Positions 3,211 to 40,674 of a stretch of DNA of 50,782 nucleotides are shown here, piece after piece. The stretch's first letter is position 1. The number at the start of each line of letters is the position of its first letter. The notes under the pieces were generated by a model. It saw nothing but the letters and a program-made list of their open reading frames with translations, had not been told where the DNA came from and searched no databases. The position numbers and the translations under genes are program-made. Source of the stretch: Methanosarcina sp. Ant1 (lineage in GTDB: Archaea; Halobacteriota; Methanosarcinia; Methanosarcinales; Methanosarcinaceae); assembly GCA_001714685.2 (NCBI GenBank), contig MDTP02000056.1, positions 1-50,782 of the forward strand, written 5' to 3'.

Positions 3211-3342
3211 TTAAGGAATGGTTAAGAAATAACTCCAAGTTTTCACTTTGGGAATGGCTCTATAATTCCATTTCCCAAAATAAACATCAAAGACAATATC
3301 GGTAACAGAAATGCTTGAAATTGTAGTTTCATCATTCCTAAG
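3211..3342 (+). repeat. 130-bp interspersed repeat, copy 1
   Basis: One of three copies in the window (others at 33727-33855 and, inverted and interrupted, 40238-40674). The ends are imperfect inverted repeats (TTAAGGAATG / CATTCCTAAG). Inside is a short hairpin with arms GGGAATGG and CCATTTCCC. The right end supplies the stop codon of the ATPase pseudogene (TAG at 3338-3340), so insertion may have trimmed that gene. No coding capacity. Confidence 0.85.
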
Positions 3343-33726: not shown

Positions 33727-33855
33727 CTAAGTAATGGTTAAGAAATAACTCCAAGTTTTCACTTGGGAATGGCTCTATAATTCCATTTCCCAAATGAACA
33801 TCAAAGACAATATCGGTAACAGAAATACTTGAAATTATAGTTTCATCATTCCTAA
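33727..33855 (+). repeat. 130-bp interspersed repeat, copy 2
   Basis: Closely matches the copy at 3211-3342, from CTAAGTAATGGTTAAGAAAT to CATCATTCCTAA, including the internal GGGAATGG hairpin. Small length differences (CACTTGGG for CACTTTGGG, and one A lost further on) distinguish it. Confidence 0.88.
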
Positions 33856-34798: not shown

Positions 34799-35572
34799 TT
34801 AAAGAGGAAAGAAACGATTAAAAGAAGTGACGCGACTGATCCAGAATGTCTTTCCCATTTTTTTCATATTATCTTCGGTATAGAAAGAGTTGTCAGCAAC
34901 ATAGTACACTTTATTCTCATGAGTTAAACTTGATTTAAGGGATTTGATGGTTTCCATGATAGTGATTTTATCCAAGGCGTTCCCCGAATGAGTATTCATG
35001 AAGAAGGGTATACCTTGCTGATTCACAATCAAACTCAAAACGAATTGCTTGAGATCCCATCTACCGTTCTTAGGTACACCAAAAGTAATGTCTATTGCTC
35101 CTTCTTCCTCACTTTCATAGTCGCCGTATACACTGACGCTTGTAGTGTCAGTGTGCAATAGGTGACAAGAAATTGGTAGACGATTCATCACATGAAGAAC
35201 GATATCCATAAAGAGTTTTGTTGGACCATACTCAAAAATCCTATCAAGGGTTTCACCGATTGCATATTGATTCAGGTCTTCCTTGGTTACGCCTTCTCCA
35301 AAGAGCCTCTCTGTTGAAATATTTTTGAAAAAATCAGGAAACAAGTACAAACGCTGCCCCACAAAACCAAGGCCATTGATCACCTTGGCAAGGATACAGA
35401 TCTAATGGGGTACGTTATGGTCTCTTTTCTTCGGAAGCTTCCTATCAATAAGTTTGTCAATTTCAAGTTCCCGAAAAAGTCCAGCTATGAGACCAAGGTG
35501 ACCTAAAAAGCTTATACGTTTCACAGATGCATTAAGGTTTCTACTACCGCCTTTGGGGTTACTAAATTTCAT
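34799..35572 (-). pseudogene. IS1634-like (IS4-superfamily) transposase, truncated, with in-frame amber
   Basis: The frame starts at ATG 35572 (MKFSNPKGG) and continues through a TAG at 35402-35404 (codon 57) without frame change into ICILAKVINGLGFVGQRLYLFPDFF. The DDE-type core appears: LLHTDTTSVSVYGDYE contains the first Asp, and YYVADNSFY the second. Homology ends near 34838; the frame then stops after FNRFFPL, so the distal third with the catalytic Glu is missing. Because Methanosarcina decodes some UAG codons as pyrrolysine, the amber codon alone need not kill the gene, but the truncation would. The IS end lies 37 bp upstream of the start codon. Confidence 0.8.
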
Positions 35573-35608
35573 TAATAGAAAAATATAAAATAATCCATAT
35601 TAATCTAT

Positions 35609-35630
35609 ATGTTTACCTGCCGAATCTAGG
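35609..35630 (-). mobile_element. Terminal inverted repeat of the transposase-bearing IS
   Basis: On the minus strand CCTAGATTCGGCAGGTAA... matches the 22-bp terminus of the MITE at 40347-40622 at about 18 of 22 positions. It is therefore taken as the left end of the IS. The other end was not found. Confidence 0.6.
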
Positions 35631-40237: not shown

Positions 40238-40674
40238 CTAAGGAATGATGAAACTATAATTTCAAGTATTTCTGTTACCGATATTTCAAGTATTTCTGTT
40301 ACCGATATTGTCTTTGATGTTTATTTGGGGAAATGGAATTATAGAGCCTGCATTCGGCAGGTCGACATTAAATTTTGAGGACATTTATTGATAACGTTTT
40401 TGAAATAATCTACTATAATTGCGCGTATTTATTAGGTTTACATATATCAGGATATTAATCTCCTAGACTAAACTTACTGCAAAAAAGTTTCATTGCTTAT
40501 ATATGCCATAGGAGCTGAGCTACGCGTTAACCAACTTTACATCGAATGATATTTATCAAATGTTCAAAAAACGATATCAATAAAAATAGTTTAGTTTCTT
40601 ATGTCGACCTGCCGAATGCAGGATAGAGCCATTCCCAAAGTGAAAACTTGGAGTTGTTTCTTAACCATTCCTAA
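40238..40674 (-). repeat. 130-bp interspersed repeat, copy 3, split by a MITE
   Basis: Inverted relative to the other two copies. The left part (40238-40346) and right part (40623-40674) reconstitute the repeat once the 276-bp insertion is removed. A 24-bp segment ending CTGTTACCGAT is tandemly duplicated within it (40259-40306), a change absent in the other copies. Confidence 0.85.
40347..40622. mobile_element. 276-bp MITE with perfect 22-bp terminal inverted repeats
   Basis: The ends CCTGCATTCGGCAGG... and ...CCTGCCGAATGCAGG are exact inverse complements over 22 bp. The direct repeat ATAGAG flanks it (40341-40346 and 40623-40628), and deleting the element with one ATAGAG restores the host repeat seen at 3211 and 33727. 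The interior is AT-rich with no ORF. The ends resemble the terminus near the transposase remnant (35609-35630). Confidence 0.93.

Follow-up and report, generated by a model that had tools for sequence, protein, structure and literature searches.

A 276-bp IS1634-type miniature transposon nested in a second miniature transposon in Methanosarcina

A miniature transposon inserted in another

The stretch of DNA analysed here, referred to as the window, comprises 50,782 nucleotides of contig MDTP02000056.1 from Methanosarcina sp. Ant1, whose draft genome totals 4.29 Mb in 342 contigs. It carries a short element without a gene, a repeat that this element interrupts, two uninterrupted copies of the same repeat and a decayed IS1634-family element (Table 1).

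Table 1 Features of the nested elements and related sequences in the window
Feature	Position	Strand	Remarks
MITE, IS1634 type, non-autonomous, 276-bp	40347..40622	+	22-bp perfect TIRs; 6-bp TSD; empty sites; 37 own-genome matches
Left terminal inverted repeat (TIR), CCTGCATTCGGCAGGTCGACAT	40347..40368	+	paired against right end
Right TIR, exact complement of left	40601..40622	-	paired against left end
Target duplication (TSD) ATAGAG, left copy	40341..40346	.	fits NTNNAN
Target duplication ATAGAG, right copy	40623..40628	.	
Interrupted host MITE, 124-bp family	40242..40671	+	TAA flanks at 40239-40241 and 40672-40674
Uninterrupted host MITE copy, empty site 1	33731..33852	-	TSD TTA
Uninterrupted host MITE copy, empty site 2	3215..3338	-	TSD TTA
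Truncated, decayed IS1634-family element	34834..35630	-	73% DNA identity to copy C72 over 792 bp; NF033559 E 6e-49
Transposase fragment ORF of the decayed element, 194-aa	34799..35383	-	

An earlier sequence-only reading had described exact 22-bp terminal repeats, a 6-bp ATAGAG target duplication and no ORF, and each of these features is present. The two ends (40347-40368 and 40601-40622) are complementary at 22/22 positions, and ATAGAG occurs on both sides (40341-40346 and 40623-40628). No coding ORF lies inside the 276-bp element, whose + strand contains 8 stops in frame 1; the ORF list holds none of at least 60 aa internal to it, and the sole listed ORF that overlaps it begins within the right end and extends into the flank. 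When the flanks are joined with one ATAGAG, the resulting sequence is 96.4% identical to window positions 3321-3211 and 95.4% identical to positions 33835-33730, the two empty sites that the same reading had pointed out. Because the rejoined flanks match two uninterrupted repeat copies (95-96%), insertion of the element is proven. It is short and lacks a transposase ORF, its perfect TIRs are accompanied by a 6-bp TSD, and it occurs in multiple dispersed copies with empty sites, all as required of a MITE. The 276-bp element is thus a real, geneless miniature transposon nested in a second miniature transposon.

The interrupted repeat belongs to a family with GGAATG/CATTCC ends that is present across the genus, with at least 40 copies in the source genome; 3-bp TNA duplications flank 22 of the 25 copies checked. 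Nesting in another repeat, as originally proposed, is borne out; with its own TNA duplications this outer repeat also ranks as a MITE, so that one MITE lies within a MITE of a different kind. The 3-bp TNA duplication points to the IS5 family as the probable affiliation of the host MITE. In size class and duplication length it resembles the ISMma12-linked MITE of M. acetivorans (IS5 family; 140 bp, 24 copies, IR 16, DR 3; PMC3852290 Table 4), although the two differ in length (124 versus 140 bp) and are likened by table description alone. The interrupted copy also contains a 24-bp exact tandem duplication, ATTTCAAGTATTTCTGTTACCGAT, at 40259-40306, which neither of the uninterrupted copies in the window shows.

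Copies across the genus and a second nested pair

The 276-bp element has 37 matches in its own genome, among them around 10 near-complete copies with 75-98% identity. A 15-mer from its end, searched with up to 2 mismatches, occurs 47 times genome-wide, compared with a single occurrence of the reversed control pattern. Relatives are found in 26 of 31 Methanosarcina genomes, a single genome yielding as many as 56 hits, and some matches extend to a few other genera of the same family (Methanosarcinaceae); plasmid records contain no match. The search for further copies that had been proposed as a check thus succeeded both in the source genome and in the genus. Copies placed with their flanks are mostly 275-280 bp long, and 45 of 66 keep a TSD of 5-7 bp (6 bp in 37, 5 bp in 6 and 7 bp in 2). 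AT-rich target duplications of 5-6 bp, characteristic of IS1634, are found on MITE copies. In genome G002, a group of copies is nearly identical in sequence and retains intact 6-bp duplications, suggesting recent movement.

A copy on another contig (C180:2512-2788) shares 98% identity with the window element and likewise lies inside a host MITE copy. Such high identity, together with residence in the same host family, is what duplication of the window pair as a unit would produce. However, the C180 copy has the TSD TTATAG instead of ATAGAG, its site is shifted by 2 bp, it faces the opposite way within its host MITE and the unique flanks of the two pairs differ. These differences identify it as an independent insertion, and we regard duplication of the nested pair as very improbable.

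Both nested insertions sit in the 10-nt inner-hairpin loop of the host MITE. This raises the possibility, which we consider doubtful, that IS1634-type elements in the source genome prefer this loop and that one MITE family may serve them as a landing platform. The chance of two nested hits is ~1e-4 to 4e-3, depending on the fraction of the genome open to insertion, and is a post hoc figure that is not firm. A search for the junction pattern across the 31 genomes returned only the two known cases. General targeting of hairpin loops was rejected, because neither symmetry nor folding potential at 45 reconstructed target sites exceeds that of adjacent positions. With no general hairpin preference at these sites and no further case among the genomes, the landing-site preference is only a lead.

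Shared ends with IS1634-family elements and the probable source of mobility

The IS1634-like remnant in the window retains one end (35609-35630) and approximately half of the transposase gene, while its other end is missing. This end, CCTAGATTCGGCAGGTAAACAT, agrees with the MITE end CCTGCATTCGGCAGGTCGACAT at 18/22 positions, the count on which the sequence-only reading had based a link to the IS1634 transposase family. Complete elements substantiate that link. In related genomes, IS1634-family elements of 1719-1729 bp encode transposases of 542-545 aa, are flanked by 6-bp TSDs and end in CCTAGATTCGGCAGGTWAAC and variants, matching the MITE ends. All three transposases scanned match NF033559 (E below 1e-115), and both of those scanned against Pfam contain a DDE_Tnp_1 domain. 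In the source genome, IS copy C72 (1717 bp, TSD ATACAT, gene broken) ends in CCTGTATTCGGCAGGTTGACAT, identical to the MITE end at 20/22 positions, so that the end is shared with a complete element of the family. The end CCTGCATT also fits the family pattern C-----YT (PMC2266710), with C at position 1 and TT at 7-8, and the consensus is 92.6% identical to the IS fragments of genome G024 over 27 bp. Targets agree as well: NTNNAN is found in 27/37 MITE TSDs and 7/8 IS TSDs, against a background of 10.6% in the flanks.

Similarity between MITE and IS does not reach beyond about 30-40 bp from either end. The interior is unlike the IS sequences with which it was compared and shows no derivation from them by deletion; archaeal MITEs usually have only their ends in common with an IS, and an origin by internal deletion is not defining (PMC3852290). 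The ends themselves differ in one respect, GGTCGAC in the MITEs versus usually GGTWAAC in intact IS, and as a result no exact same-genome parent was found. Two intact own-genome IS1634 copies (C27 and C50) were rejected as parents, the end search having found no end of this type in them; their protein identity is 46%. In the source draft genome, the closest IS copies either are broken or run off the end of a contig.

The CGAC/WAAC difference is bridged in G024 by IS1634 fragments with the MITE-type end. There, DNA for the transposase N terminus, 84-87% identical to intact IS, lies directly behind the MITE-type end TCGACATTAAA. Shortened IS copies in this genome have the exact MITE-type end (GGTCGACATTAAA) fused to IS1634 transposase sequence, and at one further locus (L249) part of the transposase is joined to the other IS end. 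Agreement thus extends beyond the ends to the TSD length, the target motif and the IS derivatives with MITE-type ends, which makes the parent link stronger than first stated.

Three of the G024 fragments (L246 2762-3152, L247 2761-3152 and L248 2761-3154) have a common internal stop position and differing flanks. A second end is not seen at these three loci, while L249 combines the identical breakpoint with the other IS end. Genome G008 carries a longer IS1634-type element at L210 and L230 (1940 bp), with 6-bp duplications, similar ends and a 484-aa ORF by ATG-to-stop reading.

From the ends, duplications, empty sites and copies, together with the target signature common to the IS and the shortened MITE-ended IS derivatives, all observed directly, we infer recognition of the element's DNA by an IS protein, movement in trans and an IS copy responsible for it. 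Specifically, the 276-bp MITE was, with high probability, moved by transposases of Methanosarcina IS1634-family IS (~1.72 kb) into a copy of the 124-bp MITE. The IS1634 transposase would bind the common ends CYTNNNTTCGGCAGGT, excise or copy the 276-bp element and insert it at an AT-rich NTNNAN site, of which 6 bp would be duplicated. In the window, the element landed in a copy of the different, 124-bp MITE.

The consistent end difference, CGAC in the MITEs against WAAC in most intact IS, could instead mean that an autonomous IS of another, unsampled kind owns the element, its ends resembling IS1634 by chance and the IS1634 elements being bystanders. Genome G022, where several MITE copies occur but the IS query detects no matching transposase, would fit this account. 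The bystander account is nevertheless unlikely, because TSD length and the NTNNAN target are common to the MITE and intact IS1634, and the CGAC end itself occurs on IS1634 fragments in G024. Still less probable is that the element is a functional intergenic cassette, a structured RNA or regulatory element resembling a MITE in looks only. Blocks of its interior, including a TATA-like stretch, are conserved between genomes above 0.9, as a function might demand, but the TSDs and empty sites prove insertion. In addition, an RNAalifold analysis of 57 distinct copies predicts hardly any pairing outside the TIRs, covariation is negligible, and a comparison with Rfam yields no match at gathering thresholds and chance-level hits below them; on these results, a structured-RNA function was rejected. 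Mobilization by IS1634-family transposases is thus the reading that we retain.

Published relatives and significance

Beside the window subtype stands a sister subtype of 236-237 bp with 6-bp duplications (L251-L257, L262 and L264, in genomes G001 and G009). In G001, which we take to be M. acetivorans C2A, it aligns at 74-77% with roughly one half of the 276-bp element; the window subtype is ~40 bp longer and the other half is divergent. A 237-bp copy plus its two TSDs spans 249 bp.

Two MITEs linked to the IS1634 family have been described in Methanosarcina: the ISMac10-linked MITE of M. acetivorans (249 bp, 15 copies, IR 18, DR 0) and the ISMba11-linked MITE of M. barkeri (247 bp, 23 copies, IR 20, DR 6) (Kamoun et al. 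2013, PMC3852290 Table 4). Both are likened to the window element by table description. The former agrees in genus and IS family, the latter also in copy-number range, IR length and 6-bp duplication, but its 247 bp differ from the 276-279 bp of the window subtype. The G001 subtype is plausibly the published ISMac10-linked MITE, although the paper gives DR 0 for the latter and the 236-237 bp copies have 6-bp TSDs. The family itself has C-----YT ends, AT-rich 5-6 bp duplications and lengths of 1500-2000 bp, and is diverse in archaea (De Palmenaer et al. 2008, PMC2266710); the window element resembles it in ends and duplications and differs in its 276-bp length and lack of a transposase.

The MITE had been put forward as new, and this holds in part. 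As MITEs of 247 and 249 bp with a link to IS1634 have been known since 2013 and the G001 subtype matches one half, the window element is a longer subtype of a described group, and the MITE-IS1634 relationship is of a kind already published for Methanosarcina. The element is best called a new, longer subtype of this known group, set beside the published MITEs by description.

Non-coding, multi-copy repeats found genus-wide in these methanogens are thus tied to a named transposase family through their ends, the length of their duplications, a common target signature and deletion forms of intermediate type. The locus also provides a case of one MITE nested in another in which the relative age of the two is clear. 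Mobilization of MITEs in Methanosarcina is only inferred in the literature searched, and the element and its candidate transposases would offer a defined transposase-substrate pair that is testable in this genus.
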